Source of the DNA: Verrucomicrobia bacterium S94
Lineage (GTDB): Bacteria > Verrucomicrobiota > Kiritimatiellia > Kiritimatiellales > Pontiellaceae
Reading direction: 5' to 3'
NCBI GenBank assembly: GCA_004299845.1
Contig: CP036201.1
Span: 1,054,001 to 1,118,000 of the forward strand
Length of the DNA stretch: 64,000 nt
The translations under genes and the position numbers were made by a program. The notes beneath the pieces were generated by a model. It ran no database searches and was not told the DNA's origin. It saw only the letters and a program-made list of their open reading frames with translations. Below, piece after piece: positions 5,671 through 60,674 of this stretch (positions are counted from its first letter, which is position 1; every line of letters starts with the position of its first letter).

Positions 5671-5673
5671 TGT

Positions 5674-10552: not shown

Positions 10553-10700
10553 GGTTCTATTATCGGAAATCGGCTCTGCCGGTACTATGAGTTCATCTGC
10601 CGCATTTATGCACATTTCCGCCAGGCGGCTATTCTTTAGTTTATTTGTTGTGACTTGCCGGATATGACGTCGTTGGCGGGGGAACGTGGACGAAAGATTT

Positions 10701-10720
10701 ATCCCTCTTTCGGTGGATGT
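10701..10720. promoter_or_regulatory. Candidate operator dyad in divergent promoter region
   Basis: ATCCCTCTTTCGGTGGATGT lies 77 bases before the kinase gene start. It matches sites at 13574, 26641 and 32009 in core sequence and in being followed by a T-rich stretch. Part of it also sits inside a 7-base inverted repeat (CGAAAGA, 8 bases, TCTTTCG at 10691-10712). It may be bound by the adjacent LuxR-type regulator. It lies in the divergent region and could also control the sulfatase operon. Confidence 0.45.
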
Positions 10721-10796
10721 TTTTGAAACCGCAACCGGGGATGGGCATGGTAAAACATTTGTCCTTTTAAGGGTTATCCTCTAAGGATCTCCTGTT

Positions 10797-12941
10797 ATGA
10801 AAAAATGCAAAACAGCAGTTTGGGCGATTCTGTTTCTGGCAGGACTGCAGGTCTGGGGTGCGCCTTTGTCGCGCATTCCGGAGATCCGCAACCTTACTCC
10901 GGAGATTGCTGATCAGAAGCAGGCTGTGGAGCTGGAGGCTCAGATTGTCTGGGTGGATCCGGTGCGGGGCAGTTTTTTTCTGAATGATGGTGCGCACGGA
11001 ATTTATGTTCGCCATCGACAGAAACCCGGAGAGAAGGTGTGTCTGAAACCGGGGGATGTGGTCCGGGTATCGGGGGTTACCGGAGCCGGGGGATTTGCTG
11101 CCGAAATCATTGCCGAAAACGTTCAGATTCTGGAACATCGGGCTTTGCCGAAAGGACGGGCTCTATGGCCGACCCATCTTCATTCTCCGGAAGTTGATTG
11201 TGACTGGTTTTTTATGGCCGGCCGGCTGGTTTCCTATGAGGTGATTGAAGAGTCGTTTGTGATTATGGCGGAAATGATCCGTGATGAGCAGATCATGCAT
11301 TTGCAGATACCTGATACGCCGGATAATCGGAAGCGTATGGCGGCCTTGATGTTTCACTGGGTGGAATTCAATGCCGTTGCCGGAACGGTGAATAACAGCA
11401 GCCGCCAGATTGTGGGACGGATTTTTCATGTTTCATCGGCCGGCGACTTCAAAGTGTCTGGCGTTTCACTGAAAGAAGCATTAAGCGAAGTGAAAGAGGC
11501 GATACCGATCCACGAGCTCATGCGGCAGGGTATGAGACTGCACAGCATTGTGAAAACCTACGGAACGGTTACGCATGTTGGAAACCGTGAGTTGTTTTTG
11601 AGGGGGGAACAGGCCGCATTGTATGTTCAGATTCAGGATCCGGGTAGCGTTGTGGTCGGAGATCGGGTCGAAGTGGTGGGGCTGGTTAATCCGCATCCGG
11701 TTTCGCCGGCCATGCGTGCACATTCGGTACACGTTATCGATCATGGCGGTTCGCCAGAACCTATTCGGTTGAATTCATTGTCGGGCATTACAGACCGTTA
11801 TAATTTTGACTTAGTTCAAATTGACGCGAAACTGGTCGAAACCGGAAACTCGTTTCAATTGAGTAATGGCCGGGGAAATCCGCAAAAACTGATCAAACTG
11901 CTCTGCCGCTCCGATAACCGTTTGTTTGAGGCGAATCTGCAGGCCGGAGCAGAGCTTCCGGAATCCATCCGTTCTGGGGCTATGGTGAGGTTAACGGGAT
12001 TGTGTCATGTAAATCGGGGGAACTGGCGTGCGTGGCATCTGGATATTCAGGGAATCAGGCTGGAGTTGCGCAGTGCGGCGGATATTCAGCTGATGGAGGC
12101 CGCACCGTGGTGGACGGTTAAACGGATGCTGTGGGTTGTTGGGATGATTCTGCTGATTGCTCTGGTTTTCCTGGTCTGGGTTCTGCTGCTGCGTAAAACC
12201 GTAGAACGGCAGACCGGAATTATCGGCGAAAAGATGGAGCAGGAGGCCGTGCTGAATGAACGGCAGCGGATTGCCCGTGAACTGCATGATAATCTGGAAC
12301 AGAGTCTGGCCGGTGCGATTTTCCGTCTGGGCGGGGTGCGTTTTATTCAGGAGTCGAATATTCAGGAAAACCAGGAGCTGTTTGAACAGACGCTAAACGG
12401 GAGTGTTTCCGTGGAACAGCTTCATGCCGCCTGGCGTGAAAGCGTGGAGAAAAGCAATGCGGATCTGGAATCGGTTGAACATATGCTGAGTTATTGTTCG
12501 GCGGAATCGAGAACCTCGATTCTGGACCTGCGCGGCGGATTGCTGGAGAGCATGGATCTGGTCGGTGCAGCGGGAATTACATTGAAAACGTTGAACGGTC
12601 AGTGGAACGCATCGTCCGAATTGCGGGTTGAGGGAACGCCGCGGCGGTTTGCCCGCGAAGCTGAACGGAATGTGCTGCTGGTGATCAAAGAGTCGGTTTC
12701 CAATGCAATTCGGCATGCGGAAGCAGAACATATTATAGTGACGCTGGATTATTCCGCAGGATTCAGAGTGGAAATCAGGGATGACGGGTGTGGGTTCGAT
12801 GTTTCTGCCGCCGAAAAAAGCGGTCGGTTCGGGCTCCGGGGCATGTGTGAACGAATGCGGAATGTCGGCAGTACACTGAAGATTCAGAGTGCGCCCGGAA
12901 AAGGGACAACGATTTCGGCAAGTGTGGAGGTGAAGGGATGA
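10797..12941 (+). CDS. Sensor histidine kinase with OB-fold-like sensor segments
   Basis: This 714-residue membrane kinase has a signal peptide (about 1-21), then some 420 extracytoplasmic residues in about four OB-fold-like segments. The pattern is IRNLTPEIAD..., FFLNDGAHGIYV and GDRVEVVGLVNPHPVSPA. A transmembrane helix follows at about 444-466. The cytoplasmic part has a HisKA_3 dimerisation helix with phosphoacceptor His about 497 (ERQRIARELHDNLEQ), and a HATPase domain with an N box (IKESVSNAIRHA), DDGCGFD and GRFGLRGM. HisKA_3 kinases partner LuxR-type regulators, and the next gene overlaps it by 4 bases. The sensed ligand is unknown; context suggests an algal glycan product. Two paralogues lie at 29211 and 57682. 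Confidence 0.92.
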   Translation: MKKCKTAVWAILFLAGLQVWGAPLSRIPEIRNLTPEIADQKQAVELEAQIVWVDPVRGSFFLNDGAHGIYVRHRQKPGEKVCLKPGDVVRVSGVTGAGGFAAEIIAENVQILEHRALPKGRALWPTHLHSPEVDCDWFFMAGRLVSYEVIEESFVIMAEMIRDEQIMHLQIPDTPDNRKRMAALMFHWVEFNAVAGTVNNSSRQIVGRIFHVSSAGDFKVSGVSLKEALSEVKEAIPIHELMRQGMRLHSIVKTYGTVTHVGNRELFLRGEQAALYVQIQDPGSVVVGDRVEVVGLVNPHPVSPAMRAHSVHVIDHGGSPEPIRLNSLSGITDRYNFDLVQIDAKLVETGNSFQLSNGRGNPQKLIKLLCRSDNRLFEANLQAGAELPESIRSGAMVRLTGLCHVNRGNWRAWHLDIQGIRLELRSAADIQLMEAAPWWTVKRMLWVVGMILLIALVFLVWVLLLRKTVERQTGIIGEKMEQEAVLNERQRIARELHDNLEQSLAGAIFRLGGVRFIQESNIQENQELFEQTLNGSVSVEQLHAAWRESVEKSNADLESVEHMLSYCSAESRTSILDLRGGLLESMDLVGAAGITLKTLNGQWNASSELRVEGTPRRFAREAERNVLLVIKESVSNAIRHAEAEHIIVTLDYSAGFRVEIRDDGCGFDVSAAEKSGRFGLRGMCERMRNVGSTLKIQSAPGKGTTISASVEVKG

Positions 12942-13570
12942 ATGGATCGATTCGGATACTGATTGTGGATGATAACCAGATGATGCGGTTCGGGCTGAGC
13001 GGCAGTCTGGCGGCCATGCCCGGAGTGACGGTGGTGGGCGAGGCGGCCAATGGGGAGGAGGCGCTGGCGCTGGTGGATGAGCACCGGCCGGACATCGTCA
13101 CCATGGACTATAAAATGCCGGGCGATAACGGGCTGGTGGTGACGGAAAAGATTCTTAAGCGCTATCCGGATACCCGGATCATTCTGCTTTCGGCCTTTGA
13201 TTCGGAAGAGGATATCTGGAAAGCGGTGCAGGTGGGGGTGAGGGGATATCTGACCAAGACGGCGGGTAATGTAACTGAGTTGCTCGAGGCCGTTAAAGCC
13301 GTTGCGGCTGGTGAACGGTATTTTCCGGAAATTATTGCCCATCGTTTAAAAGAGCGGCAGAAGGTTTCCGGTCTCAGTTCGCGGGAGGTGGAGGTGCTTA
13401 AACTGCTCGCAGCGGGTAAATCGAATCAGGAAATTGCGGACAGTCTGGATATCGCATTGGAGACGGTGAAATCCCATTTGCTGAATCTGCGTTCCAAGCT
13501 GGGGGCGGCCGACCGGACGCAGGCGGTGGTGATTGCTTATGAAAAGGGTATACTTCATCTGAATGAATAG
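12938..13570 (+). CDS. NarL/LuxR-type response regulator
   Basis: A 210-residue protein with a receiver domain (acidic pair VDDNQ, phosphoacceptor Asp in IVTMDYKMPG, conserved Lys in YLTKTAG) and a C-terminal LuxR helix-turn-helix (LSSREVEVLKLLAAGKSNQE, recognition helix near ETVKSHLLNLRSKL). Its ATG overlaps the kinase stop codon (ATGA), so the two are co-translated. It probably binds DNA as a dimer when phosphorylated. Its recognition helix is nearly the same as that of the regulator at 31364, so both may read the dyad found at 10701, 13574, 26641 and 32009. Confidence 0.93.
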   Translation: MNGSIRILIVDDNQMMRFGLSGSLAAMPGVTVVGEAANGEEALALVDEHRPDIVTMDYKMPGDNGLVVTEKILKRYPDTRIILLSAFDSEEDIWKAVQVGVRGYLTKTAGNVTELLEAVKAVAAGERYFPEIIAHRLKERQKVSGLSSREVEVLKLLAAGKSNQEIADSLDIALETVKSHLLNLRSKLGAADRTQAVVIAYEKGILHLNE

Positions 13571-13573
13571 AGC

Positions 13574-13593
13574 ATCCCTCAAAAGGTGGAGAT
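13574..13593. promoter_or_regulatory. Candidate operator dyad upstream of FAD oxidoreductase
   Basis: ATCCCTCAAAAGGTGGAGAT begins 3 bases after the response-regulator stop and 85 bases before the next start. It shares 14-15 of 20 positions with the site at 10701 and is also followed by a T-rich run. The position suits an activator site ahead of a promoter for the LamG/FAD oxidoreductase gene. Confidence 0.45.
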
Positions 13594-13677
13594 CTTTCTT
13601 GGCGGGAAAAACGGTGTTGTGTCGTTTAATCGTAGTTTGACAGAGCGGGAGTGTTTCCTGATAAACAACTGGAGTGA

Positions 13678-16600
13678 ATGATGAAAAAACTGATTCTTGT
13701 TCTATGTGCCGCCGCAGGGTGGTCTGTTATGGTATCAGCGAAAAACGAAAAGCCAATGGCTTACTGGAAGTTTGATGATGGGGCTGGTCATGTGGTGGCG
13801 GATGCTTCCGGAAACGGTAATTCCGGAAAAATTGAAGACGTCAAATGGGTGATGGGTGCAGTGAATTCTGCCGCGCAGCTGGGGTATCAGGCCGGGGTGC
13901 AGATTGATCACGATGCCAGTCTGCTGCCGGACAGTGCCTTTTCTGTACAGGCCTGGATTAAACCGTGGGCGCCGAAATATGACCAGCATCCGACGATTGT
14001 CCGAAAAAACGGGTCTTATGTGTTCAAGCTTGCGCCGAGTAAATCGCTGGCACTGGTACTTTGGCTGAACGGTGAAAAGAAAACCTTTGAGTCGAAACAT
14101 AAAGAGTGGCCGAACGGCAAATGGCAGCATGTGGCTGCGACGTATGATGGCAAAGAGGTCTGTCTCTATGTGAACGGAGGGCTTGATGCTGTGTTTCAGG
14201 CTTCGGGCATGATTTCCGGCAGTGCATCCGACTGTTTTATCGGCGCCGAGAATAAGCAGTTCTTTTTTAATGGAACGCTTGATGAAGTCCGGTTGGATGG
14301 GGTTGCGCTGAGCTCGCGTGATATTGCTGAGTCGAGTTATAAGGGGCGGCTGGAAATGGCCCGTCGGGATAACCGGTTCACGGATTTTTATGAAAAGACC
14401 CGCAAACGCAGCGGTGAAACACTGGTTCCCGGAACGCTGTGGATTGATGCCGAGGATTTTGAGGATTACGGCGGCTGGTGGATGGATACCCAGTTTGTAC
14501 CGCAGATGGGTTCGCCCTACCTGATGGCGGCCGGTATCGGTACACCGGTTGAAAATGCAACGACCACGGTGAATATTCCGGAATCAGGAACGTATCGCCT
14601 GTGGGTACGAAATAAAAACTGGATCGGTCATCGTCATGCACCGGGTCAGTTCGCGGTATCCATCGGCGGGAAAAAATCAGAAACCACTTTCGGCACCCGC
14701 GAGCAGCGGGCCTGGGTCTGGCAGGATGGCGGTACATTTGAGCTGGAAAAAGGTAAAACAGCCATTGAGCTGGAAGACCTGACCGGCTGGTATGGTCGGT
14801 GTGATGCACTGCTGCTGACGAAGGATCTGGAATTTTATCCGAAGCAGGAGCAGAAGGATTATCTGCCGATGCGGAATAAATTTGTCGGTACGATGCCGGT
14901 GGAAGAGCGGGGTCATTTTGACTTTATTGTGGTCGGCGGCGGAGTGGCCGGATGCAATGCGGCCATTGCGGCTGCGCGCGGCGGAGCAAAAGTGGCGCTG
15001 ATTCAGGACCGTCCGATGGTCGGCGGGAATAACAGTTCCGAAATGGGTGTGCCGGTTTCGGGCGGTTCGAGTCTCGGAAAAGGGCGTGAAACGGGATTGA
15101 ATGAAGAGATCGGCCGTATTCATGCCTATAATTTCCTGAGCAAATGGGCGACGGCGGCCGAGCAGGTGATTGCTGATGAGCCGAATATCACGTTATTCCT
15201 TAATACGCATGTTTTTGAAGCCGAGGTGGATAAAGATAATAAAATCACGGCGGTAAAAGCGTTTGATATGATTGACGGTCATCATACCCGCTACACGGGC
15301 GATATCTTTGCCGACTGCACTGGGGATGGCTGGTTGGGTTATTATGCCGGAGCGGACTGGATGCTGGGTCGTGAATCGAAAGAGCAGTTCGGCGAAATGA
15401 ATGCCAAGGATATTGCAGACAGTGTTACCATGAGTGGTTCGTTGATGCAGAATTCCATTCTCGGTTATCAGGCGATCGATACCGGCAAGCCTTATACCTT
15501 TGAAGGGTTGCCGTGGTTTTATGATCTGCGTATGAATGAAGAAGGGTATGTAAAGCATCGACCGCGGTATGAAAACGGAATCCGTGCCGGAAACTGGTGG
15601 ACGGAAAATCATGGCCGTAACGATGATCTGTGGGATCCGGAATGGGCGCGTGATGATCTGATTCTGGTGAGTCTTTCCTATTACCACTGGATCAAGAATT
15701 ATTCGCCGCTGGCCGAAGAAGCAAAAAACTACCGGTTGCGGTATATTCCTGTTACCAACGCCAAGCGTGAAACGCGCCGTCTGGTAGGGGATGTGATTGT
15801 GACCGAGCACGATATTCTCAACCGCAACGTGTTTCCCGACCGTGTGGGTTATTTTGTCTGGAAGCTGGATGTGCATCATCCGCTGGGAATCTTTTCTCCG
15901 GAAAGTCCATACGACTATGAGAACACGATTTCTCCGGCGAGTTTCCCGCTGCGGATGCTCTATTCCAAAGATGTGCCGAATCTGTTTATGGCAGGACGCC
16001 ATGTCTCGGTCACGCACGTTGCACTGGGTTCCGCCCGGGTTCAGGGTACAACCGGTATGATGGGACAGGCGGTTGGTTCGGCGGCGGCCATGTGTCTGAA
16101 CTATGAGACCACCCCGCGGGGCATTGTTCAAAATCATATGGCAGAATTGCAGCAGCAATTGTTGAAGAATGATGTAACGATTCCGCATCTGCGTAATGAA
16201 GATCCGAATGATCTGGCGCTGATGGCCAATGTGAAAGCTTCCAGCCGGAAATCGCTGGAAGACGGCGTGCAGAATGTGATTAACGGCCTGGCCCGTCCGG
16301 TCGATGAAAACTGGGAAATGTGGATCGGCAAAGTACCGAACAACATGTGGATTTCCGATCCGAAGCAGGATATGCCGCAGTGGGTGGAGCTTGATTTCGG
16401 GGGAAACAGAAGGTGAACTCGGTTTATCTGACCTTCGATACAAACCTGAAGGCCAAGCGTTATATCAGCTGGGAGCAGAAACCGGAAGAGCGCATGCCGC
16501 CGGAATGTGTACGTGATTATCAGGTTCAGGTGCAGCAAAACGGAAAATGGGAAACGGTGGCGGATGTGACGAATAACTATCAGCGTCGTCGGATTCACCG

Positions 16601-16700
16601 CTTCCCGACATTGGAAACAGCGAAAATACGCATTCTGATCACGGCAACTAACGGGGATCCCTCGGCACGTATTTATGAAATCCGTGCGTATAACGAGTAG
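13678..16700 (+). pseudogene. Secreted LamG/FAD-dependent oxidoreductase, frameshifted near 3' end
   Basis: The product has a Sec signal peptide, a LamG/concanavalin-like domain (about 25-230), a jelly-roll-like domain (about 255-390, starting [14 protein letters not shown]) and an FAD_oxidored domain. The last begins [20 protein letters not shown] (dinucleotide fold) with [12 protein letters not shown] next. A discoidin-like end follows. The main frame stops at 16416 just after VELDFGG, and a second frame (from 16413) carries the remaining 95 residues. The intact paralogue at 37296 continues through this point (WIELDFGGKKKLNAVYL). One extra G in the five-G run at 16399-16403 would restore the frame. 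The gene may still yield a protein lacking its last 95 residues. The substrate is unknown. An exported flavoprotein joined to lectin folds suggests oxidation of a bound glycan. Confidence 0.8.
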
Positions 16701-16730
16701 TTCTGTTTCGTATAATCAAATTGAGTTGAC

Positions 16731-16768
16731 GCCCCGCGCTGTTTTCATACAGGCGCGGGGCTTTTTTG
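16731..16768 (+). terminator. Rho-independent terminator
   Basis: A GC-rich stem (GCCCCGCGC facing GCGCGGGGC) with a 13-base loop is followed by TTTTTT. It lies 31 bases after the FAD oxidoreductase reading and separates it from the sigma-factor operon. Confidence 0.88.
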
Positions 16769-16845
16769 TATTCACTGATTTTTTCTGCCTAATATCGAAT
16801 CCGGCCTGAAATGAATGAAAGTGAAGGCGGCAAAAGCGGAACAGA

Positions 16846-17382
16846 ATGATGACTGAACAAGAGAAGATTGAATATCTGCTGAAAGCGTATTATGCGGAAC
16901 AGGACCGGTTTCGCGGTTATGTCTTTTCGGCAACGAAGGATTATCATGCAACGGAGGACATTCTTCAGTCCATTGCGATCGTTGTTGCCCAGAAGGCGGC
17001 GGTGTTTGATATGAACCGTGATCTGATGCCGTGGCTGATGGGGATTGCACGGAATAAAATCAAACACTGGTTTTACCATCACGGAAAACAGGTCCGTAAT
17101 GTCCAGTTTGAAGTATTGGAAAACTGTCTGGTTCATCATTCCGGAGCATTCGGACAGGATGAACTGTCGCCGCGTCAGGAAGCCCTGATGAAATGCCTGA
17201 AGCGTCTTCCGTCAAAACAGAAAAAGGTTTTAGAGCTGCGGTACGTCGGCCGTAAGGACTGTTCTTCTGTGGCGGAGGAGCTGGGGCGTTCTGTTCAAAG
17301 TATTTATTCTACCCTGAAGCGGGTAAAACGTGAGCTCAGAAAATGCATCGAGCGCAGAACCGCTGAATTGGAGATCGTGTGA
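16846..17382 (+). CDS. ECF-type sigma factor
   Basis: This 178-residue protein has region 2 at about 15-85 (YVFSATKDYHATEDILQSIA, then LMPWLMGIARNKIKHW) and region 4 at about 115-170 (LKRLPSKQKKVLELRYVGRK, then a helix-turn-helix ending YSTLKRVKRELRK). There is no region 1 or 3, as in ECF factors. The sequence style matches the Rhodopirellula/Verrucomicrobium sigma family. The next gene, which overlaps it by 4 bases (GTGA), encodes a FecR-like membrane protein, the usual arrangement for a signal-controlled sigma factor. Likely targets are the following secreted-protein genes. Confidence 0.9.
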   Translation: MMTEQEKIEYLLKAYYAEQDRFRGYVFSATKDYHATEDILQSIAIVVAQKAAVFDMNRDLMPWLMGIARNKIKHWFYHHGKQVRNVQFEVLENCLVHHSGAFGQDELSPRQEALMKCLKRLPSKQKKVLELRYVGRKDCSSVAEELGRSVQSIYSTLKRVKRELRKCIERRTAELEIV

Positions 17383-18668
17383 GCAAACATTTATCAGAAG
17401 CGGAACAGATGGCGTTCGAATATTTTGAGCGAGACCTTTCCGAACACGAAATGGATCAGTTGTTCGATAGGTTAAACGAGTCTGCAGAACTGCGGGATAG
17501 CTTTATGGAGGTGGCGCGGGACGAATGGCTGCTTCAGCACTCGCTTCACCTGCAGCACTCGATGCTGAAACCGGAGATGAAACGGCTCAATTTCAGAAAG
17601 AAAGTTCGCCGTGTTGCCGCGATGGCGGCGGTTCTGCTGGCGGTTGTGAGCATTTTCATTGCCCATCAGGTGCGGGTGAATCTGGTGTCGGCCGCCGAAA
17701 CGGTGCAATTGCATCCGCTGGCAAAGGTTGTCGATTTTTATGTGATGGAAAATGATATGATCACGCTGGTGAATCAGGGTGAAGTGCGGGAGCTGACGGC
17801 GAGGAGCCGGTTGAACAGCGGTGATCGTATTGTCGTTCCGCCCGGGGCGCGTCTGATTTTTCAATATCTGAATGAGAAAACAGCGGTTGCTGTGGCGGGT
17901 AATAGCCTGCTTTCGGTTTCAGACGGACAGCGGGGAAAGACGATTCGGCTGAACCACGGACATTTAAAAGCAGACGTGGATAAGCAGGATCCTTCCGCCC
18001 CGATGCGCGTCCTTACAGATGATGCCGAAGCGGTTGTTCTGGGAACGACTTTTGAAATCAGTGCTTTGGGGTACACCCGGTTGGCGGTTCATGAGGGATG
18101 TGTCCGACTCAAATCGTTCCTGCATAAAACATCGGTCGATGTTTCCGCGGGACATCTGGTTAATTCATTCGATATGGAGAAAGCCGGTGAGATGTCGTTT
18201 GTACAGATCGAGCTCGTTCCGGTTCTGAATAAAACGCTGAATGATCCGGTATCAGACTATTATCTGATCGTGGATGATGATCGTAACTATTCGGCTTTTC
18301 TGGCCTTTGATCTCGGAGATGTGAGTGAGCGGATTATTGAAGCGCGGCTGCAGCTCACGGTAGCCCGCAGTCAGCAGGATCGCTGGGGTGAAGGGCTGTT
18401 CCGGCTGCATCGGCTCAGTCCGTCGGCCCGGCCTGGCGAACCGGAGACCTTCGGCATGAAAACGCAGGTGGCCTATTTTCAGGGGCAGGTGGATCGGGAT
18501 CTTCAACTTGAGATGGTGATTGATCCGAAACAGCTGAAAAACGGAATCAATAATTTTGAACTGAGTCTGGATGAAGGCGGTAACGACTGCTGGTTTGCTC
18601 CGGTCAAAAGCAGTACGCCACCCCGCCTGATTCTCAAGGTCCGTAACGGGCCAAGCGGTGAAGAGTGA
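17379..18668 (+). CDS. FecR-like transmembrane regulator with lectin-like tail
   Basis: Starts at GTG overlapping the sigma-factor stop. The 429-residue protein has a short cytoplasmic N-terminus (LSEAEQMAFEYFERDLSEHE, resembling the anti-sigma zinc-less segment of FecR proteins), one transmembrane helix (about 69-92), and a periplasmic FecR domain (about 120-270, LNSGDRIVVPPGARL and AEAVVLGTTFEI). The last 140 residues (from about 290, LIVDDDRNYSAFLAFDLGDV) resemble the DNRLRE/CBM96-type beta-sandwich found in secreted polysaccharide-binding proteins. It probably holds or activates the sigma factor in response to an outside signal. Fusion of a lectin-like domain suggests the signal may be a glycan. 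Confidence 0.8.
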   Translation: MSKHLSEAEQMAFEYFERDLSEHEMDQLFDRLNESAELRDSFMEVARDEWLLQHSLHLQHSMLKPEMKRLNFRKKVRRVAAMAAVLLAVVSIFIAHQVRVNLVSAAETVQLHPLAKVVDFYVMENDMITLVNQGEVRELTARSRLNSGDRIVVPPGARLIFQYLNEKTAVAVAGNSLLSVSDGQRGKTIRLNHGHLKADVDKQDPSAPMRVLTDDAEAVVLGTTFEISALGYTRLAVHEGCVRLKSFLHKTSVDVSAGHLVNSFDMEKAGEMSFVQIELVPVLNKTLNDPVSDYYLIVDDDRNYSAFLAFDLGDVSERIIEARLQLTVARSQQDRWGEGLFRLHRLSPSARPGEPETFGMKTQVAYFQGQVDRDLQLEMVIDPKQLKNGINNFELSLDEGGNDCWFAPVKSSTPPRLILKVRNGPSGEE

Positions 18669-18682
18669 AAGAGGAGGGAAAT

Positions 18683-21600
18683 ATGAGGAAGAAAAAAGTA
18701 CAGAAACCGAAAAGGGGAAAAATGAAATATAAACTCGGTAAACATAAAACCGTGTGGTTGATGGTACTGACTGTTTTCAGCTCGGTTCATCTGGTTAAGG
18801 TGGAGGCGGCAGAATCGCCATGGACTTCCGCCAACCGGATTGCTATCAGTGCAGACGGTAATCCGGATGCTGATGCCGACGATATCGGTGCAACGCCGTT
18901 TGCATTGGCGATGCTGGCCAAAGCGGGGCTGCAGGACAATCTGGTGCATTATGATTTCAATAATTTTCTGGAATATAAGAAAATTGAACCGGCAGATAAT
19001 GCCATGTGGGACAGTGCGATGGGGGCACAGGTGCGATGGGGATTTGATGCCGGCCGGTTTTTTGATGCTTCAATTGATCCGGACGGTGCGGTTGACCATC
19101 TTACGGAGGAAATCAATAAATCTTCGGCCGCCGATCCGCTCTATCTGATTGCGGCCGGACCGATGGAGCTGATTTACCGTGCTCTGAAAAATGCGGACAG
19201 CACGGCGCGACAGCATGTAACGATTGTTTCGCACCACGATTACAATGAATATTTTAAACCGCGCCTGTGGCAGCGGAACTGGAATGATATTCAGGCATTG
19301 GTTCCGAATATCGGCTATCTGAGGATTGCCGATCAGAACGGCAGTAACGGAAACGGCCTGAAGGGTACCGCGGATTCGGATTTCAGTTGGCTGGATACCC
19401 ATGCGGATCCGAATCTGAACTGGGTGTATGATCGTATCGTGGCCGGGAAGCCGGATGTTTCCGATGCAGGTATGCTTGCCTGGCTGATTGGAATTAACGG
19501 AACTGATGAAAAAGTAACGATTCCGGAAATGCAGGCCTGGTTCGGCACCGGGCTGATTCCGGCCAACGGCGGCAGTTCGACTGCTCCCACTGCTCCGGCC
19601 GGCGTGACGCCGGAGGTTGTGCCGCCCTCCACCGACAGTATCTTTGAGGAAGTCGATGGAAAAATTGTGATTGAAGCCGAGAGTGTTCCGCTGACGGATG
19701 ATTGGATTTTGGATACGACGGAAGCGGGGTACAGCGGCTCGGGATATATCCGCTGGGTGCCTTCCTGGATCAATAAAATCAGCCATCAGCATGAAGGGGT
19801 GCTCGTCTATAAACTGCGGATCTCCAATCCTGGCAATTATCGGATGGCGCTCCGTTCCTCCCACTTCGGTGCGCCGGCCCGTGACCAATGGAATGACTGC
19901 TGGACGGTCATGGGGCTGAATCCGGTGAATCCCTATGGTATCACCCGAAAGACCTATCATTCCATTTCGCAAGCGGAGTTTGATGCCGGGGCCGGTTTTA
20001 CGTGGCATACGACGCATGATAATTATGGAACTGTTGCGAATACCGACGGCCATTTTTCGGCACCGCTCTATAATCTGGATGCCGGGGATCATTATTTCTT
20101 TATCTGCGGGCGCTCGGGGGGATTCCGAATCGATAAAATTCATTTCTTCAAAGAGGGCGTTTCCGGATTCAAAAGTGATTCAGAGCCGGCCACCCCGATT
20201 ATTCCCGGAACCGGTGTGCCGCTGGTTTCCGCCGGGAATGACCGGAAAGTGCTGATGCCTGCAACGGGCACGCAGCTCGCAGGATCGGCCTCGGACGACG
20301 ACGGAACGATTGTATCCACGGAATGGACCCAGAAGTCGGGACCGAATACAGCCGTGATTTCGACGCCCTCGCAACTGACGACGGAGATCAGCGGCATTAC
20401 ACTGGGCACTTATGTTTTCACGCTGACGATTGAGGATAATGACGGGAACATCCGCTCAGACGATGTTACTGTTGATTGTGTGGGCAGCCTGATGATTCAG
20501 GAAGATGATTTCAGTGCGTACAGCGGGAATATCAATGGTGATCACTGGAATCCGAAATGGTCATCGGGCACTGATCAGCAGAGCCTATGTGAGGGAAACG
20601 GCGGATTACTGACGCTTGATACAACGGTGGCGGCGGAAAACTATCATGTGGCGGCGAAACATCCTTTTGTCCTGACGGTGGATGGACAGAAGGCGGTGAT
20701 GGGTTCTGATTTCCGGTATACCCACATGGCTGGAGGCGAAGCGGCCGAAGGACTGAACCGGTCGGTATTCGCGCTGATGTTTACGGGTGCCGACAACTGG
20801 TGGACCGGTCCGAACCGTTTTTTCAGTATCTGTAATCGCGGTTCCGGAATCGGGACGTTCAATGCAACGGGTCCGGATGTCATTTCTCATACAACACTGG
20901 GAGTGGATACGGAAACCGGCGGGCAGAGTGATTGGTTCCGGATGGAGTGGACGCTGGAACGTGGGGAGGAAAACTATATTGCCTCTGCCCGGATTCTGGA
21001 TTCCGGCGGTGCGGTGCTCTATGCCGGTCCGGCCGTAGATCTGGGAATTGCCAACGGAACCACTCTTTACGGCGGGTACAGCACCGGAGGGGACGGCGGT
21101 AACGGATTCACCACTAATGTGGCTTCGTTTTCGCGGATATCGTCTGTTCAGATGGATAACTTTTCGCTGGAGGTTTTCAGTCCGCATATGACGCCTGTTT
21201 ATGAAACGGTTTCAAAGATGATTGATTTCACTGAACCGGAGGGATTCGTTAACGGCGGTCTGAACGGTCAGCAGGGGTGGGTCAATGCCGGAGCAGGCTG
21301 GACGGTGGATACGACTGTTTCCGGTACGGCCGGCTGTTCCGCCGCGAATGCCAATATGACGCTGGGACGGGGCATCAGACTGAGTCATGAAGGCGATACG
21401 CTGGAATTCAGTGTCACCTATACCGTTTCCGGAACCCATGTGCCTACGGGCTGGAAATACCTTGCGCGCATCGGCATCACTTCCGATGCCTCCGGCAGCA
21501 ATGCGGGGTATGATGCGGCGGGTACTTCTCTGACCGAAGCGATGTTTACCATTCAGTTGCATCAGAGTACCGCCGATGCTTATCGTATTTATGGCGACGG

Positions 21601-22258
21601 CTGGGACGGACCGTTTACCGATCCGTTTAATTCCAATCCAGGAGATACCTTTACGGCTCATTATTCGCTGACGTTGGGGGAGGATGCGTCCGGCACGGTA
21701 TTTTCGGTTGAACTCGAAAATGATACCCAGTCGACGTTGTCGGGGGCTATCAGCGAAACAGACGGAATCGGGGCGGCGCTGTACGAAGCGATTAAAGCCG
21801 GTAATGCCTATGTCTACTTCGAAACGGGCGGGCTTGGTGACGGCATTACCGGGGTGTATGTGGATGCGGTGCGTGTGTTTTACTCTTCGCTGCAGATTGA
21901 CAGTTATCCCGGCTGGATCAACGACTACGGCTTCCTCGGTTCCGAGGCCGAAATGGAGTTTGATTATGACGGCGACGGCGTGTCGAACCTGAAAGAATAT
22001 ATCTGCGGAACCGCGCCTGATGATGCGGCTTCGGTTTTCCGGGTAAATGCGGAACGGGAACGGACTTCAGACGGTCTGGTGATTTCCTGGCATGCAGCTC
22101 CGGGACGCTCGTACGATATTCTGAAAAGTGAAGATATAACGTCGGGCGTGTATACATCGGTTGTTGAGAATATCCCGTATCCCCGGAACAGCTGCACCGT
22201 CGAAGTCAGTCAGGTGGAATCCGGAGCCTTCTACAGAGCGGCGGTTCGTATTCCCTGA
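18683..22258 (+). CDS. Giant secreted multi-domain protein, nucleoside-hydrolase-like N-domain
   Basis: The frame opens at GTG 18665, but GAGGAGGG at 18671-18678 sets the ATG at 18683 as the better start. After a charged leader and signal segment, the first domain (about 45-300) carries an Asp cluster, DGNPDADADDIGATPFALAM. It also has VSHHDYNE, both reminiscent of the metal site of nucleoside hydrolase/DUF1593 folds. Next are a CBM6/35-like jelly roll (IEAES start), a PKD-like domain, two LamG-like sandwiches, and a C-terminal module with a calcium-type repeat (DYDGDGVSNLKEY) ending AFYRAAVRI. The enzyme activity is not established. It overlaps the FecR gene, so it is in the sigma-factor operon. 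A relative with the same first domain starts at 60675. Confidence 0.82.
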   Translation: MRKKKVQKPKRGKMKYKLGKHKTVWLMVLTVFSSVHLVKVEAAESPWTSANRIAISADGNPDADADDIGATPFALAMLAKAGLQDNLVHYDFNNFLEYKKIEPADNAMWDSAMGAQVRWGFDAGRFFDASIDPDGAVDHLTEEINKSSAADPLYLIAAGPMELIYRALKNADSTARQHVTIVSHHDYNEYFKPRLWQRNWNDIQALVPNIGYLRIADQNGSNGNGLKGTADSDFSWLDTHADPNLNWVYDRIVAGKPDVSDAGMLAWLIGINGTDEKVTIPEMQAWFGTGLIPANGGSSTAPTAPAGVTPEVVPPSTDSIFEEVDGKIVIEAESVPLTDDWILDTTEAGYSGSGYIRWVPSWINKISHQHEGVLVYKLRISNPGNYRMALRSSHFGAPARDQWNDCWTVMGLNPVNPYGITRKTYHSISQAEFDAGAGFTWHTTHDNYGTVANTDGHFSAPLYNLDAGDHYFFICGRSGGFRIDKIHFFKEGVSGFKSDSEPATPIIPGTGVPLVSAGNDRKVLMPATGTQLAGSASDDDGTIVSTEWTQKSGPNTAVISTPSQLTTEISGITLGTYVFTLTIEDNDGNIRSDDVTVDCVGSLMIQEDDFSAYSGNINGDHWNPKWSSGTDQQSLCEGNGGLLTLDTTVAAENYHVAAKHPFVLTVDGQKAVMGSDFRYTHMAGGEAAEGLNRSVFALMFTGADNWWTGPNRFFSICNRGSGIGTFNATGPDVISHTTLGVDTETGGQSDWFRMEWTLERGEENYIASARILDSGGAVLYAGPAVDLGIANGTTLYGGYSTGGDGGNGFTTNVASFSRISSVQMDNFSLEVFSPHMTPVYETVSKMIDFTEPEGFVNGGLNGQQGWVNAGAGWTVDTTVSGTAGCSAANANMTLGRGIRLSHEGDTLEFSVTYTVSGTHVPTGWKYLARIGITSDASGSNAGYDAAGTSLTEAMFTIQLHQSTADAYRIYGDGWDGPFTDPFNSNPGDTFTAHYSLTLGEDASGTVFSVELENDTQSTLSGAISETDGIGAALYEAIKAGNAYVYFETGGLGDGITGVYVDAVRVFYSSLQIDSYPGWINDYGFLGSEAEMEFDYDGDGVSNLKEYICGTAPDDAASVFRVNAERERTSDGLVISWHAAPGRSYDILKSEDITSGVYTSVVENIPYPRNSCTVEVSQVESGAFYRAAVRIP

Positions 22259-22387
22259 GCCCGGCTGGCCGGAACGCTCTACGCGCCGGATTCCGGAGGA
22301 CGTTGCTCTTTTGAACGATAGGAAATCCGGAGAATTCAGAATACATTGGAGCCGTTTAACCTGCAGAGGAAGTGCTGGTAAAGGGGA

Positions 22388-24675: not shown

Positions 24676-24704
24676 GGAAATAGGTGAAAAGGTATGGAGG
24701 ACGT

Positions 24705-26566
24705 ATGAAAATTGAAATGGGTTTAATTCTGATGCTTAGCGGTATCTGTTCCGCGGCGTACAAACAGCCGAATATTCTCTGGATCATTACCGATGATCAT
24801 CGCCCGGATTCAATCCAGGCCTATAACCGGGCAACAATCGGCCAAAGTGAAAGTCCGCTCGGTTATGTGTCTTCGCCGAATATCGATCAGCTGGCAGGAG
24901 AAGGGGTGCTTTTCACGCAGGCATTCAATAATTCGCCGGCGTGCGGCCCGTCGCGTACCTCCATGCATACGGGGCGCTATCCGTTCCGCAATGGAAAATA
25001 TGCCTGGGAGGCGACCCATCAGGAAGCCGATTTCACGCGTCCGGCGATTTCCCAGCAGCTGAAAGCGGCGGGCTACGGTACGGCAATGTTCGGCAAGGAC
25101 CATTACAGCATCAGTGAAAAGCTCGGTGGCGAAGGTGATATTTTTGATTATAAAATGGAGTTCAACCGCGATCTTCATCGACAGGGATTCGGCGGTCTTT
25201 TTTCCACCGGGGCGTATGGGCTGATTGACGCAGTGTTGTATCGCCGTGATGCCACCGAAACGGTGTTTTATCCGGACGGTCGCAGAAAGACCTATCCCAT
25301 TTCCCGGGCGGATCGTGCGCTGAGTCCGGAGGAGCAGCAGACGAAAGAAGCCGTGGAAAAAGAGTTTGATATTCTGCGGGCCTATACCCGTATCAATACC
25401 GGGCTGATTCTGGGCGGCGTCAATCCGCAGCCGGCGGATAAAACCGTCGATGCCCGCATCGTGGAGGAATATAAAAACTACCTCTCTCATGCCGGCACCA
25501 CCTACACCACACTGGCGGGAAAGAATGTCCGGGGTGCGGATCCGGAAAAACCGTTGTTCATCAACCTTGGTTTTCACCTGCCGCATTCCCCGGTTCTTCC
25601 TCCGAAAAAATTCCGGGATCAATTTAAAAACCGATCCTATAAAATACCGGAATTCGATACGGATGACATCGCTTCATTCACCCCTCAGCAGATGCAGATT
25701 TATAATGAATCGAAAACCGATCTGATGGATCCGGAGGATAAGCTGCAGGCCATCCGGGATTACTACGCCTTCACGGCATTCGGAGATGCACTGGTCGGGG
25801 AGGCCGTCGATGCCTTCAAGGCCTACTGTGCGGAACGGAATGAAGATTATCTTATTGTTTTCACGATAGGCGATCATGGATGACATCTGGGCGAGCAGGG
25901 CATTATGGCCAAATTCGGTTCCTGGAGGGCATCACTTAACGGAGCAGTGATTGTGGTCTCTTCCGATAAGGAAAAATATCCCGCCGGCAAAGTGGTAGAT
26001 AAACTGGTGGAATATGTTGATTTTGCGCCGACGATTATGGACGAAGCCGGAATTGATATTGAGCAGGATGCATTTGATTATCTTGACGGGTTCAATCTTG
26101 CGCGTGTCGTCAACGATTCCTCATTCCGCCGGGATTATATTCTGGGAGAAATGAATCTGGTCTCTGTGGTCATCGGGCTTATCTGCGCACGAAGGATTTT
26201 GCCTTCTCCATGCGTACGCGTAAGCGGCGCACGGTGGCCGAAACCCCGTACCTGAATGATGATATTACCTGGGCATTGACCACGGAGCCGCTGAATGCCG
26301 AAATGGCGCTGTATGATCTGCGGCACGACCCGATGGAGCGCCGGAATGTGGCCTATACCGTTGAATATATTGAACTGGCGGAATGGTTCCGGCAGAAACT
26401 CGGCCGTATTGTACTGGGAGACGGGCGCGTGGAAATGGACTGGTCGACCGTTAACTGTTATAATCTGAGCAATTCTGCCGCCGGGGCGGACGATAAGATG
26501 AGCGATATTCCGAAAGCGCTCATTCCCGAAGGCCCCGTTCGGCGACCGGAGCGCTTTAATCTCTGA
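24705..26566 (+). pseudogene. Type I sulfatase, broken by stop and frameshift
   Basis: Start at 24705 has a GGAGGA ribosome site just upstream. The first 392 residues hold the signal peptide, WIITDDHRPDS (metal site) and PACGPSRTSMHTGRY (catalytic Cys about 80). The frame stops at TGA 25881-25883 in TIGDHG, where iduronate-sulfatase-like proteins read GDHGWHLGEQG. The next codons in frame are HLGEQGIMAKFG, so TGG has become TGA. A frameshift near 26155-26170 then moves the reading to GHRAYLRTKDFAFSMRTR, which runs to 26566. It resembles iduronate-2-sulfatase-like and choline-sulfatase-like S1 subfamilies. It ends the sigma-factor cluster. Confidence 0.8.
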
Positions 26567-26640
26567 TTTCAGCATTTTCCCGTCTTTGGAATGTTCGGAG
26601 ACTGTAAAATATTCTTTGAGGGTTTCGTTCTTCGTCGGAC

Positions 26641-26660
26641 TTCCCCCATATGGGGAATGG
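26641..26660. promoter_or_regulatory. Candidate operator dyad upstream of Gfo/Idh gene
   Basis: TTCCCCCATATGGGGAATGG contains a near-perfect 17-base palindrome (TTCCC, 7 bases, GGGAA) followed by TTTTT. It sits 119 bases before the gene start at 26780. It is the most symmetric of the four related sites (10701, 13574, 32009). Confidence 0.5.
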
Positions 26661-26779
26661 TTTTTCGATGCACAGCGGAAGCTTCTCCTGACTTAATGTT
26701 TTCCGATTCTGTGTCGTTCAGGCCTGTGAGGTACAGGCAGGATGCAGAACGGAGTATATTTAAATTCACAGGAGGAACC

Positions 26780-28141
26780 ATGGCTGTAACACGGAGAGGA
26801 TCCTTAATCACGGGCGGCATTGCATCGTCCGCGTTGCTGATTCCCGGATCGGTACTTGGTGCAAATGAAAAAATTAGTATTGCATTTATCGGTATCGGTG
26901 CCAGAGGAAACACCCTTTTGTCGCTGTTTGAAAAATCCGGCCTGATCCATGTGGCGGCACTCTGCGACGTTGATCTGGAAACGGACTATGTGGCAGAGGC
27001 AAAGAGCCGTTTTCCTAAAGCCTGTGTCTACAGCGACTGGCGGAAACTGTTTGATGAAAAGTCGCGTGAATTTGATGCGGTGATGGTGATGGTGCCGGAC
27101 CATAGCCATTTTCCCATTACCATGGCGGCGATGGCACTGGGTAAACACGTCTACACCGAAAAGCCGCTGGCACGCACGTTTGAGGAAATCGAGCTGATGA
27201 CGGCGGCTGCAAAACGGTACGGCGTGGTAACGCAGATGGGGAATTCCGGATTTTCGGGACCGAATTATTTTCAATTTAAAGCATGGAAAGAGGCAGGGAT
27301 TATTAAAAATGTGCGCCATGTGGATGCCTTTATCAACATCAGCTTCCCCTGGTACGGCCGCCGGATCAGCAGTTGGCCGGCAGGAGAAAAGATGCCCGGT
27401 CACATTAACTGGGATGTCTGGCTGGGAACAACACCGGAGCGGCCGTTCAGTAAAGAGTATGCCCGTTGGTCCTGGCGCGGCTGGCAGCAGTACGGAACGG
27501 GAGCGTTCGGTGACTGGGGGGCGCATATTTTCGATTCCATGCATCATTTTCTGGAGCTGGGTCTGCCGGAAAAAATCGAGATTAAAAAACTCGTCGGCCG
27601 GAATGATTTCACCTTTTCAAGAGCTTCAACCCTCCGGTTTACATTCCCGGAGCGGAACGGTATGCCGGCGTTGCGAGTCGATTATTATGACGGACGAAGC
27701 GAAGAGGATTATCCGCCGGAACCCGCAGCATTTGCCGGTCGGGAAAATGATTATACGAAACATCCCGGTAAATTCATTTTTTCAGATTCGTTAACATTTT
27801 TTGGGGGACATCACGGTACCCCATTACAGGTGATCCCCTATGGGAAAATGCGGGAACTGCTGCAGGCCGGAACATTGCCGAAGGATTTCGGGCGTCATTC
27901 GGATCACTATACCAACTTCCTGCTGGCCTGTAAGGGTGAGGAAAAGACGAGATCGCCTTTTGAAATCGGCGGACCGCTTTCGCAGTTTCTGGTACTGGGT
28001 TCTATTGCCCAGCGCATGGGAACAGAAGGGCAGATACTGACATTTGATCGAATGAAAAAATGTTTTTCCAATAACGATCGGGCCAATGCACTGCTGAAAG
28101 ATATACCCCGTAAAGGGTGGGAACAGTATTACACACTTTAA
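26780..28141 (+). CDS. Gfo/Idh/MocA-family oxidoreductase, exported
   Basis: The frame is open from 26591, but GGAGGAACC directly before the ATG at 26780 marks the start. This gives a protein of 453 residues with a Tat-like leader ([10 protein letters not shown] then a hydrophobic stretch), and excludes the upstream operator from the coding region. The Rossmann fold has GIGARG and CDVD, and the substrate domain has TEKPLA and [11 protein letters not shown]. Family members oxidise or epimerise sugars with NAD(P). The following gene, 14 bases downstream, encodes a DUF1080 protein. Such pairs are known to form and cleave 3-keto glycosides, so oxidation at C3 of a glycoside is the likely reaction. 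Confidence 0.9.
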
Positions 28142-28155
28142 GACGGAATAGGTAT

Positions 28156-29163
28156 ATGGCTATGAGATATAAACGACGCTGGGTATTTTTTATACTGTTC
28201 ATTCTATCTGTTTCCTCGCATGGCTTTGAATATGAAAATGCGGATGATTATCCGCTGATGGGGGACTGGGCCGGGCAATGGTATGGGGCCACCAAAGGGC
28301 ATGAACGGGTTCGACCTCAGATCTACGCCCAGCTTGTACCTGCCTGGGAGGGGTATTACCGTGTGCTGCTGCTGCCTGAACTGTATAACCGCGCGGAGCC
28401 TTATCTGGATGTCACAGTTCCCGGGAGCCATGAAAAGGTGGTGGTGAATCAGGACGGGTTTCATGTGGTATTCAGCGGTGACCGAGTTGAAGGTGTCGGG
28501 GAAATTTACGGTGAAAAGCTCCGTTTTACCCTGAGCAAACAGCCCTTTCTTCCCGCATCTGTCGGACAGGAGCCGCCGAAGGGGGCAGTTGTGCTGTTCG
28601 ACGGCAGTTCGTTTGACGCCTGGCGACATGAACCGGATAAACCGGTTACCTGGGATATTGTCGGAAATGCGATGCAGATAGCTGCAGCATCAAATAAAGA
28701 GAACAGGGAAAAGGGAATCGGTGGCAATATACGAACACGGGAAGCTTTTTCGAGTATGCGGTTTCATATGGAATTCCGTTACCCGGTGGAAGAGGGCCGA
28801 TCCGGACAGAACCGGGGAAACAGCGGTCTGTTTTTTCTGGGTATTGGCGAAGTGCAAATTCTGAACAGCTATACCACTCCGGGCTATTGGAACGAGGCAG
28901 GTGCAATCTACAAAACAGTACCGGCGAAAGTCAATGCAGCCGGTCCGCCGCTGGCCTGGCAGGCTTATGATGTGGAGCTGCTGCTTCCGGATGAGGGCGG
29001 CCGGCCGGCCATTATGACGGTGCGGCTGAATGGGAAAATTCTGCACCATAAAATGGAAATCCCATGTTCAAGGCGTGAAGTTGAAGTGATGCTGCAGGAC
29101 CACTCAAATCTGCTGCAGTTCCGTAATATCTGGTTGGTGGAATATCCGGCTGGCACGGAATAA
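28156..29163 (+). CDS. DUF1080 / 3-keto-disaccharide hydrolase-like protein
   Basis: A start at 28156 or 28162 gives a signal peptide ([17 protein letters not shown]); the frame is open from 28117 but that would overlap the preceding gene. The 335-residue protein has an extra N-terminal half (about 20-140) and then the DUF1080 concanavalin-like fold starting [12 protein letters not shown]. Typical features are [15 protein letters not shown] and the closing [12 protein letters not shown]1080 proteins hydrolyse 3-keto glycosides, and the upstream Gfo/Idh protein would supply them. The N-terminal extension is not in the 46473 relative. Confidence 0.85.
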
Positions 29164-29210
29164 AATTTCCGGAGCTTGGAATCAACAGCGACAGCGGGTA
29201 CATTCCGGAT

Positions 29211-31348
29211 ATGCGTAAAAAACGGTTCAGCGTATGGTGTCTGGGGTTTGTGCTATGGTCCGGATATACGTGGGGCAGGTTCCGATTACCTCCATTCTGG
29301 AGATACGCCGGTTAACTGCGGAGCAGGCGGAACTGGGCTACCCGGTCGCGGTTGAGGCGCAGGTGGTTCGGGTGAATCCGTATAAAAACCATTTTTTTAT
29401 CAATGACGGCGAGTTTGGTATTTTTGTCGGAGGGATATCGGAATCTCCCTCGATTGTTGAATCGCTGAACGCGGGCGATGTGGTGCTGGTTTGCGGAAAA
29501 ACAACAGCGGGTGCGTTTATGCCGGACATTCAGGCTACGTCTGTACAGGTTCGGGGCAACCGGCCGCGGCCGGAGCCGATGCAGATTTATAATACAGATT
29601 TTGTGAGTACAGGCAGTGACTGCAAATGGGGTTGGATCCGGGGCCGCCTTCTGTCCATGAAGATTTCGGCTGATCAAACGGCCATTTTACTCGAATTGAT
29701 TGATGTCGACAGCGAAGAGTATGTGGTTGATCTGCCGTATTCTGAATCCAATGAGCAACGGATCAGGGAGCTGATGTTCAGCTTTGTGAAGTTGAGTGCT
29801 GTCTGCGGAACCGTGGCGAATGAAAACCGGCAGATGGTCGGCCGTATTTTTTATGCTCATTCAGCGGATGATTTTCTGCTCTCAGGGGAGGAGTGGCTGC
29901 TGAATACGGTTGATACTGCCGAAATTCATGAACTCCTGCGCTATAAAGTGTCATTTAACCGTCCGTTCCGGACTCATGGCACTGTGCTGTATTCCCGGGA
30001 TCAGGAGATGGTACTGCGGGGCAGACGGGCCTGTCTTAAAGTGGCTCTGAATGATCCGGTTGATGTGGAGCCCGGGGTTGAAGTTTCATTGACCGGTTTC
30101 ATCTGGCTCCAGCCGGTCAGTCCGGCATTCCGGGCCGGTAAGGTTGAGGTGACCGGTAAAGCGGACAAGCCGCTTCCTGTACTGCTGGATCTGTCGGAAC
30201 CGCTTGATCCTCTGATGAATTATGATCTGGTTCAGGTGGATGCGGAACTGATCGAAATCAAGAAAGACTATGCCAAAGGCGGTACAGTTCCGCAGTATAC
30301 TATGCGCTGCCGCTCGGCCGGTGAATTTTTTGAAGCACGCCTGCCGGCAGGGATACAGCCGACAGGCCGGATTGATCCGGGCGCGTTGCTGCGTCTTTCC
30401 GGTATCTGTAATATGCAGCGGGATGATGCGGAATACCTGAATCTGGTGATATCCGGTTTCTGGATGCAGTTGCGCGGAACGGCGGATATTGAAGTACTCA
30501 GTCCGCCCCCCTGGTGGACAAAAGCCCGCCTGCTCATGCTGCTCGGCGGGGTACTGAGCATTACGCTGATTTCCATGGTCTGGATTGTGATCCTGCGGAA
30601 AACCGTGGAACGTCAGACCCGTATTATTGCCGAAAAAGTGGAGCGCGAATCGATCCATGAAGAGCGGCAGCGGATTGCCCGGGAACTGCACGATAATCTG
30701 GAGCAGGGCCTGGCCGGGGCGATTTTTCATCTGGGAGGGGTGCGGCGTATTTTCCGGAAGAGTGCTGAAAAGAATTTCCGGCATCTGGCCGATTTGGCGG
30801 CGGCGGGCAATCTTGAGGGTGTGCATGCTTTTTCCGGGAAGTGGAAGACGGAAACGGATCAGAATGCAGAGGCGCTGGAAGCTGTCGAGCATATGCTCTC
30901 ACACTGTTCGGAGGAATCGAGAACCTCGATTCTCGACCTGCGCGGCGGTCTGCTTGAAAAAATGGATCTGGCAGAAGCGGTCCGGGTCAGCTTCCGGACC
31001 CTGGAAAAAGAACGGGGGATTAAAGTGAACATCAGGATTGATGGGCAGCCCCGCCGTTTTGTACCGGCGGTGGAGCGGAATGTTCTTCTGGTCATCAAAG
31101 AGGCGGTTTCCAATGCCGCGCGGCATGCTTCGGCGGATCGGATTCATGTGAAACTTGATTTTTCGGCGGGCCTGAAGGCAGTGGTTATCGATAACGGATG
31201 CGGGTTTGATTTAAAGGAGCAGTCGCAAGCCGGGCGTTTCGGGCTGCAGGGTATGCAGGAACGAATGCAGAACATAAAAGGTTCGTTAAGTATTGAAAGC
31301 AGAAAAGGCGAAGGTACCGTGGTGACAGCGGAAGTGGCGTCGGTTTAG
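29211..31348 (+). CDS. Sensor histidine kinase with OB-fold-like segments, signal peptide frameshifted
   Basis: Paralogue of the kinase at 10797, with the same order: about four OB-fold-like segments (FINDGEFGIFV, VEVSLTGFIW), a transmembrane helix (LLMLLGGVLSITLISMVWIV), HisKA_3 (EERQRIARELHDNLEQ) and a HATPase (IKEAVSNAARHA, DNGCGFD, GRFGLQGM). The open frame begins at ATG 29234, which gives no signal peptide. A different frame from ATG 29211 encodes one ending YTWG. Adding one G to the four-G run at 29272-29275 would join it to the kinase frame (WGQVPITSILEIRRLT), matching kinase 1. If the indel is real, export of the sensor part would be lost. It follows DUF1080 by 47 bases and precedes its regulator. 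Confidence 0.85.
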
Positions 31349-31363
31349 AAAGGGGCGGATGAT

Positions 31364-31996
31364 ATGGACCAATGTATTCGAATTCTGATTGTTGATGATA
31401 ATCCCATGATGCGTTTCGGACTGCGGGGCAGCCTCAGTTCTGAGGAGGGATTCAAAGTGATCGGCGAGGCGGCAAGCGGGGAAGAGGCCCTGGCTTTTGT
31501 TCGGGAGTATCGACCGGATGTGGTTACGATGGATTATAAAATGCCCGGAGGAAACGGGATCGAGGCCACGACAGAAATTTTAAAGGATGTGCCGGAAACA
31601 AAAATCATTCTCCTTTCGGTGTTTGATTCGGAAGAGGATATCTGGAAGGCCGTTCAGGCAGGGGTCTGCGGTTATCTGACCAAGACTGCCGGTGATGTGG
31701 ATGAACTGATTGACGCGGTTAAAACCGTGGCGGCCGGAAAAGAATTTTATCCGGAAATTATTGCTCAGAAACTGAAAGAACGGCGTAAGATGTCGGACCT
31801 GAGTCCTCGTGAGGTCGAGGTGCTCAAGTTGCTGGCTGCGGGGCATTCCAATAAGGAAATGGCTGCTGCACTGGGGATTTCAGATGAAACGGTAAAAGCG
31901 CACCTTGCAAACCTGCGGTCCAAACTCGGGGCCAGTGACCGTACGCACGCGGTAGTGATGGCCTATGAAAAAGGCATTCTTCATTTAAATGAATAA
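31364..31996 (+). CDS. NarL/LuxR-type response regulator
   Basis: A 210-residue paralogue of the regulator at 12938: receiver domain with VDDNP, phosphoacceptor Asp in VVTMDYKMPG, and Lys in YLTKTAG, then a LuxR domain (LSPREVEVLKLLAAGHSNKE, ETVKAHLANLRSKL). GGGGCGG precedes the ATG. It lies 15 bases after kinase 2, so the two form a two-component pair. The recognition helix differs from regulator 1 at only two residues, so they may share sites. A dyad of the shared type (32009) lies 12 bases beyond its stop. Confidence 0.93.
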   Translation: MDQCIRILIVDDNPMMRFGLRGSLSSEEGFKVIGEAASGEEALAFVREYRPDVVTMDYKMPGGNGIEATTEILKDVPETKIILLSVFDSEEDIWKAVQAGVCGYLTKTAGDVDELIDAVKTVAAGKEFYPEIIAQKLKERRKMSDLSPREVEVLKLLAAGHSNKEMAAALGISDETVKAHLANLRSKLGASDRTHAVVMAYEKGILHLNE

Positions 31997-32008
31997 TTCA
32001 GACGCTCC

Positions 32009-32028
32009 ATCCCCCAAATAGGGAATCC
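32009..32028. promoter_or_regulatory. Candidate operator dyad upstream of PEP-CTERM gene
   Basis: ATCCCCCAAATAGGGAATCC holds the palindrome (A/T)TCCC, 7 bases, GGGAA, followed by TTTTT. It lies 82 bases before the PEP-CTERM gene at 32110 and just after the regulator gene, in the same relation seen at 13574. Confidence 0.5.
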
Positions 32029-34836: not shown

Positions 34837-34853
34837 TTCCCTTTCACAGGGAA
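34837..34853. promoter_or_regulatory. Palindrome resembling the shared dyad
   Basis: TTCCCTTTCACAGGGAA matches the TTCCC, 7 bases, GGGAA pattern of the sites at 26641 and 32009. However, it sits directly in front of a terminator, so it may only be part of the terminator structure. Confidence 0.3.
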
Positions 34854-34854
34854 C

Positions 34855-34889
34855 AGGGTGCTCTGAAAACAGAGCGCCCTTCTTGTTTA
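34855..34889 (+). terminator. Rho-independent terminator
   Basis: AGGGTGCTCTG, loop AAAA, CAGAGCGCCCT, then TCTTGTTT. The stem has one G-T type mismatch. It follows the LamG gene by 33 bases and separates it from the GH16 gene. Confidence 0.8.
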
Positions 34890-60530: not shown

Positions 60531-60674
60531 TTCGGTACTTCGCATTTTTTTCATCGATTAGTCATTATCATATGGATAGCTGGCCGTTTTCTTTTTCTAT
60601 GAGACATTCCATCGCATGATTTTGAATAGACGATTCAGGAAACCTATAGGATTCAACAGAAAGAGGAATATCAT

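Follow-up and report, generated by a model that had tools for sequence, protein, structure and literature searches.

Four short inverted repeats, each before a gene or operon of a polysaccharide and sulfatase cluster in the window analysed here (64,000 nucleotides of Verrucomicrobia bacterium S94; CP036201.1, positions 1,054,001 to 1,118,000), are, judging from their sequence and setting, likely to be operators of two NarL/FixJ-type response regulators (regulators 1 and 2), which would activate from near position -54 and whose kinases differ in their sensors. Sequence reading and a script show that a single 16-mer, TCCCYC-N4-RGKGRA (TCCCYCNNNNRGKGRA), covers all four sites (10702, 13575, 26642 and 32010). 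All were listed in an earlier, sequence-only reading of this DNA, whose variable gap of 4-5 bases is thus unnecessary. Site 1 (TCCCTCTTTCGGTGGA, 10702..10717) lies in the 181-bp divergent spacer (10616-10796) between a sulfatase operon on the minus strand and kinase 1 on the plus strand. Site 2 (TCCCTCAAAAGGTGGA, 13575..13590) follows the stop codon of regulator 1 by 4 bases, site 3 (TCCCCCATATGGGGAA, 26642..26657) is upstream of a Gfo/Idh gene, and site 4 (TCCCCCAAATAGGGAA, 32010..32025) follows the stop codon of regulator 2 by 13 bases, so that two sites do stand directly behind regulator genes, as had been claimed. All four are intergenic, and their ends lie 77-120 bases from the starts of kinase 1 (HK1, 10797), a LamG/FAD gene (13678), the Gfo/Idh gene (26780) and a PEP-CTERM gene (32110), in agreement with the 77-119 bases given before.

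The left half-site and the spacing are common to all sites, whereas the right half-site is GGTGGA near pair 1 and RGGGAA near pair 2, with the same split in a congener (G027). The earlier description as a dyad followed by a T-rich run survives in part: the four sites align, but sites 1, 2 and 4 are dyads of imperfect symmetry, and site 2 has only a weak T-run. Palindromicity does not exceed that of shuffled sequence, and taken as a test by itself it fails to reach significance for sites 2 and 4 or for the G027 orthologues of these two. Single sites match in 4-5 of 6 arm positions, and their 16-bp length and C/G-rich core fit the NarL-type 7-2-7 arrangement. The NarL/NarP operators of Escherichia coli likewise span 16 bp and have a C-rich left and a G-rich right arm; they consist of two inverted heptamers, to which a response regulator with a GerE domain binds as a dimer (PMC4549865). 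The length and CCC/GGG core shared with an engineered NarL 7-2-7 site, TACCCCTAAAGGGGTA (PMC4549865), argue for the operator reading. In contrast to NarL/NarP operators, the present sites have C rather than A at position 2 and less symmetric arms, and there is one putative operator per promoter and a local rather than a dispersed regulon.

The regulators adjoining the sites are of the corresponding type. PF00072 and PF00196 (Response_reg and GerE) score above the cut-off in regulator 1 (12938..13570, plus strand), regulator 2 (31364..31996, plus strand) and regulator 3, which places them in the NarL/FixJ (LuxR-type) class, and a HisKA_3 kinase is encoded beside each. Regulators 1 and 2, the proposed readers of sites 1 and 2 and of sites 3 and 4, respectively, share the recognition helix TVK[S/A]HL-x-NLRSKL, which is absent from all other family members examined, where S/A is replaced by L, F, Q, V or H, and the S of RSK by E, K, D or V. 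Of the pairs examined, only these two regulators, in either species, combine S/A at the position corresponding to NarL V189 with S at that corresponding to K196. In NarL, K188, V189 and K192 contact DNA. The helices had been called nearly identical; they are distinctive and common to the two regulators, but they differ at the V189- and K192-aligned positions (S/A and L/A). The distinctive helices support the operator reading, as does the location of GerE regulator genes next to the sites.

The two pairs are related in their output halves and not in their sensors. Kinase 1 (10797..12941, plus strand) consists of a large N-terminal sensor followed by HisKA_3 and HATPase_c domains, and the transmitter, not the sensor, of kinase 2 (29234..31348, plus strand) is sister to its own. 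Tree support for sisterhood is 100/99 for the regulators and 100/97 for the transmitters. The sensors, however, fall elsewhere: that of kinase 1 clusters with kinases of G014, G017 and G019, and that of kinase 2 with a G022 kinase and pair 4. In topology tests, where the groups were named after the trees had been seen, a sensor clade of pairs 1 and 2 is rejected (p-AU 2.8e-5), as is the sensor-like grouping for regulators (1e-35) and transmitters (2e-7). Sister outputs joined to non-sister sensors suggest that the output half is shared and that the sensor was probably exchanged, which would amount to a natural rewiring experiment. The kinase 1 sensor has no Pfam match. Its AlphaFold2 model (residues about 43-434, mean pLDDT 83) resembles four tandem OB-like beta barrels, and OB-fold proteins of the HIN and CST kinds are among the top Foldseek matches, although they superpose poorly over the full length; tandem OB folds are accordingly the predicted architecture.

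The claim of one regulon read by two regulators is borne out in part, by the sister regulators, their common helix and the confinement of the sites to their locus in two species. As the right halves differ in both species, a pair of sub-regulons is equally possible. In the strict form of this alternative, regulator 1 reads only TCCCYC-N4-GGTGGA, regulator 2 reads only TCCCCC-N4-RGGGAA, and the likeness of the sites is a relic of duplication. At 7/7 sites in the two species the form of the right half-site goes with the pair next to it, which, with the two differing probable contact positions, favours an own preference for each regulator, and the non-sister sensors also fit insulation. Against it, the left half and spacing are common to both sub-types, and the receiver alpha-1 (MMRFGLxGSL) and the kinase DHp helix (GAIFxLGGVR), unlike those of most paralogues, scarcely differ between the two pairs, which favours cross-talk. 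Complete insulation is thus a serious contender that falls somewhat short of being favoured; it is a sub-case of the operator reading, and its probability is contained in that of the latter rather than added to it.

The operator reading also draws support from other clusters, in which the same layout recurs with other dyads. The genome has ten kinase/regulator pairs of this family, several of which carry a dyad of their own. A CTATC-N4/5-GGATAG dyad follows regulator 7, its G027 orthologue (G027_f), G017b and G005a; CTATC-N5-GATAG belongs to pair 4 and G017a, and CTACCC-N4-RGGTAG follows regulator 5 (pair 5) and G019a. Regulator 3 indeed shows no site of the present class, as had been noted, but it is not without a candidate: TTATCATATGGATAG (60565..60579) follows it and departs at one base from the CTATC-N4-GGATAG class found in paralogous clusters. 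The dyads of these other classes lie between the regulator and the next gene, whose start is 65-129 bases further on, and 15 of the 17 positions matching their patterns, which were partly read from those same positions, are intergenic, where intergenic DNA makes up 4-17% of the stretches. No clear dyad could be named for regulators 6, 8, 9, G014a and G014b; conserved blocks are present at the dyad place of regulators 8 and 9. Several promoters of paralogous clusters (L083, L085, L091, L082 and L094) have a second conserved element in common, ATGTTAAC[TGC]GTCTCG or something very similar, which lies about 40-70 bases past the dyad. Binding by another factor is conceivable because the window encodes further regulators, among them an ECF sigma factor (16846) and an AraC-type regulator (44100), and a global regulator might also serve. 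This is unlikely, however, as in both species the class tracks the genes for these two regulators, 1 and 2, and occurs nowhere else, and clusters with regulators of the same family have different dyads at the equivalent place. For the genus as a whole, a tentative picture, almost evenly balanced between holding and failing, is that each genome has about ten kinase/NarL-type pairs, each with its own dyad that co-changed with the helix, and that in pairs 1 and 2 a sensor exchange lets two polysaccharide signals feed one local regulon. Ten paralogues with visibly different putative operators would be a natural series for DNA choice by NarL-type regulators. These sulfatase-rich bacteria have many polysaccharide clusters, and a readable operator behind each regulator gene would allow targets to be assigned to kinases by sequence alone.

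The signal is real and, in intergenic DNA, almost confined to this locus within the genome. Between 860 and 44855 of the window, where intergenic DNA amounts to ~2.2 kb of 44 kb, the full 16-mer has four intergenic matches and no genic one. Relaxed slightly to TCCCYYNNNNRGKGRA, the pattern matches 12 times in the genome (one contig, 4.11 Mb), 5 of them at the locus; 6 of the 7 others are inside ORFs, and 474727 alone seems intergenic. Since the pattern was derived from the sites, all these counts are no independent test. The genome-wide pattern search gave nothing target-like off the locus, and the regulon is local; a genome-wide one is rejected, with 12 matches in 4.1 Mb and those off the locus nearly all in ORFs. 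A fifth site (34838, earlier given as a weaker match at 34837) was discarded, as it is not conserved and adjoins an intrinsic terminator (34855-34880).

An independent test is provided by conservation in G027, which has an orthologue of kinase 1 (78%) with a pair 2 orthologue nearby. Its sites L075:10868 (before kinase 1), L075:13742 (after regulator 1) and L076:2149 (after regulator 2) are orthologous to sites 1, 2 and 4, with identities of 15/16, 16/16 and 16/16 against 72, 65 and 79% in the remaining spacer. Equally well conserved 16-base spacer windows number 13/166, 4/92 and 15/98, the product, by the authors' own arithmetic, being about 5e-4. Of 12 pattern matches in the 4.4 Mb of G027, 3 fall within the orthologous 11-kb stretch. 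Confinement and conservation together speak for operators, and they make chance recurrence of an eye-picked pattern very improbable: the motif was derived from the sites themselves and each site is weakly palindromic, but three orthologous sites are conserved within faster-changing spacers, and the clustering is at the same locus in both genomes. In five other congeners (G005, G014, G017, G019 and G022) pattern counts are about those of a reversed-pattern control, so the class is rejected there, although some of their kinases are 48-54% identical to kinase 1, and the examined stretches around their related pairs hold no full match. The class is carried by two species only, and site 3 by one, as no counterpart was found in G027; this narrow spread counts against the operator reading. 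The closest Gfo/Idh relative in G027 (72%) sits in the cluster of another pair with the CTAT-type dyad CCTATTGGATAGG in front. In the two species' pair-7 clusters (L085:4595 and L091:16359), CCTATTGGATAGG stands 67-79 bases ahead of an ORF of 458 aa, which in L091 is Gfo/Idh. A possible explanation for the TCCC site before the homologue in the window, as against CCTATTGGATAGG elsewhere, is an exchange of operator when the gene moved between clusters.

The components are of a known kind; what stands out is the series of paralogues whose putative operators differ, together with the probable exchange of a sensor. Among solved structures, the nearest to regulators 1 and 2 is VraR (E 1e-41 to 1e-46), with DesR and NarL also found, and VraS and DesK are structural matches of the catalytic part of the kinase. 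Differences from VraR, DesR and LiaR-type systems lie in the targets and in the sensor, here a large one predicted to consist of tandem OB folds. Bacteroides hybrid two-component systems, which have many paralogues per genome, each adjoining its own cluster, are similar in regulating polysaccharide utilisation genes. The hybrids combine kinase and regulator in one protein (PMC11253607), whereas here the two are separate ORFs, the regulator is NarL-type and no fusion is found. Histidine kinases and response regulators with the same domains (PF07730, PF02518 and PF00072) are reported near GH and sulfatase genes in Pontiella agarivorans, where the passages found describe no operator, sister pair or sensor exchange (PMC10880615). 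A literature search found no described operator for these systems and no paper on the control of these sulfatase/polysaccharide clusters.

The best -10-like hexamer score peaks 33-36 bases past the sites and was reached by 2/1000 shuffles, in a test of nine promoter directions (from this genome and G027, with site 1 entered in both orientations) that treats orthologues as separate promoters though they are not independent, and whose offset was first noticed by eye. The proposed -10 of kinase 1, TAAAAC (10751..10756, plus strand), corresponds to a perfect TATAAT at the same offset in G027, and the sulfatase run has a conserved ATAT-type -10 candidate on the minus strand. The peak makes an activator site near -54 likely and supports the operator reading, and an activator is also suggested because no -35 hexamer was seen at the usual distance. 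That the sites are instead transcription terminators or RNA hairpins behind the regulator genes, as a short inverted repeat followed by T-rich DNA, only 4-13 bases past stop codons at sites 2 and 4, might suggest, is rejected as highly improbable, since sites 1-4 lack a stable stem with a U-run (fold z-scores -0.8 to +0.6, no better than shuffled), site 1 has no upstream plus-strand gene, site 3 is 75 bases past one, and the area's true terminator is quite unlike them.

If the sites are operators, kinase 1 or 2 would sense a signal outside the cytoplasm and give rise to a phosphorylated regulator, whose dimer would bind the inverted repeat, NarL-like with a 7-2-7 spacing and with its centre near -54, and activate promoters that have a -10 box and no good -35. 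Site 1 would serve kinase/regulator 1 itself and may also serve the divergent run of four consecutive sulfatase genes (4303..10615, minus strand), a possible second target. Site 2 would control the LamG/FAD gene behind regulator 1, and site 4 the PEP-CTERM gene and the genes following it. Behind site 3, the Gfo/Idh gene, a 3-keto-disaccharide hydrolase gene, kinase 2 and regulator 2 follow with gaps of -25, 70 and 15 bases and probably form an operon, which would be the target of that site; as it ends in kinase 2 and regulator 2, autoregulation is possible for both pairs. Transmitter, receiver, DNA-binding domain and operator class would share their ancestry, and the different sensors would feed two signals into one operator class, with each regulator probably preferring its own sub-type. 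The spacer 10616-10796 also contains a second conserved block, GGCTATTCTTTAGTTTATT, perhaps a second operator, which resembles CCTATTCTTTAGTCTATC before the pair-7 dyad. At the same locus, an overlapping operon (16846-22258) encodes the ECF-like sigma factor, a FecR protein and a 1197-aa PKD-domain protein.
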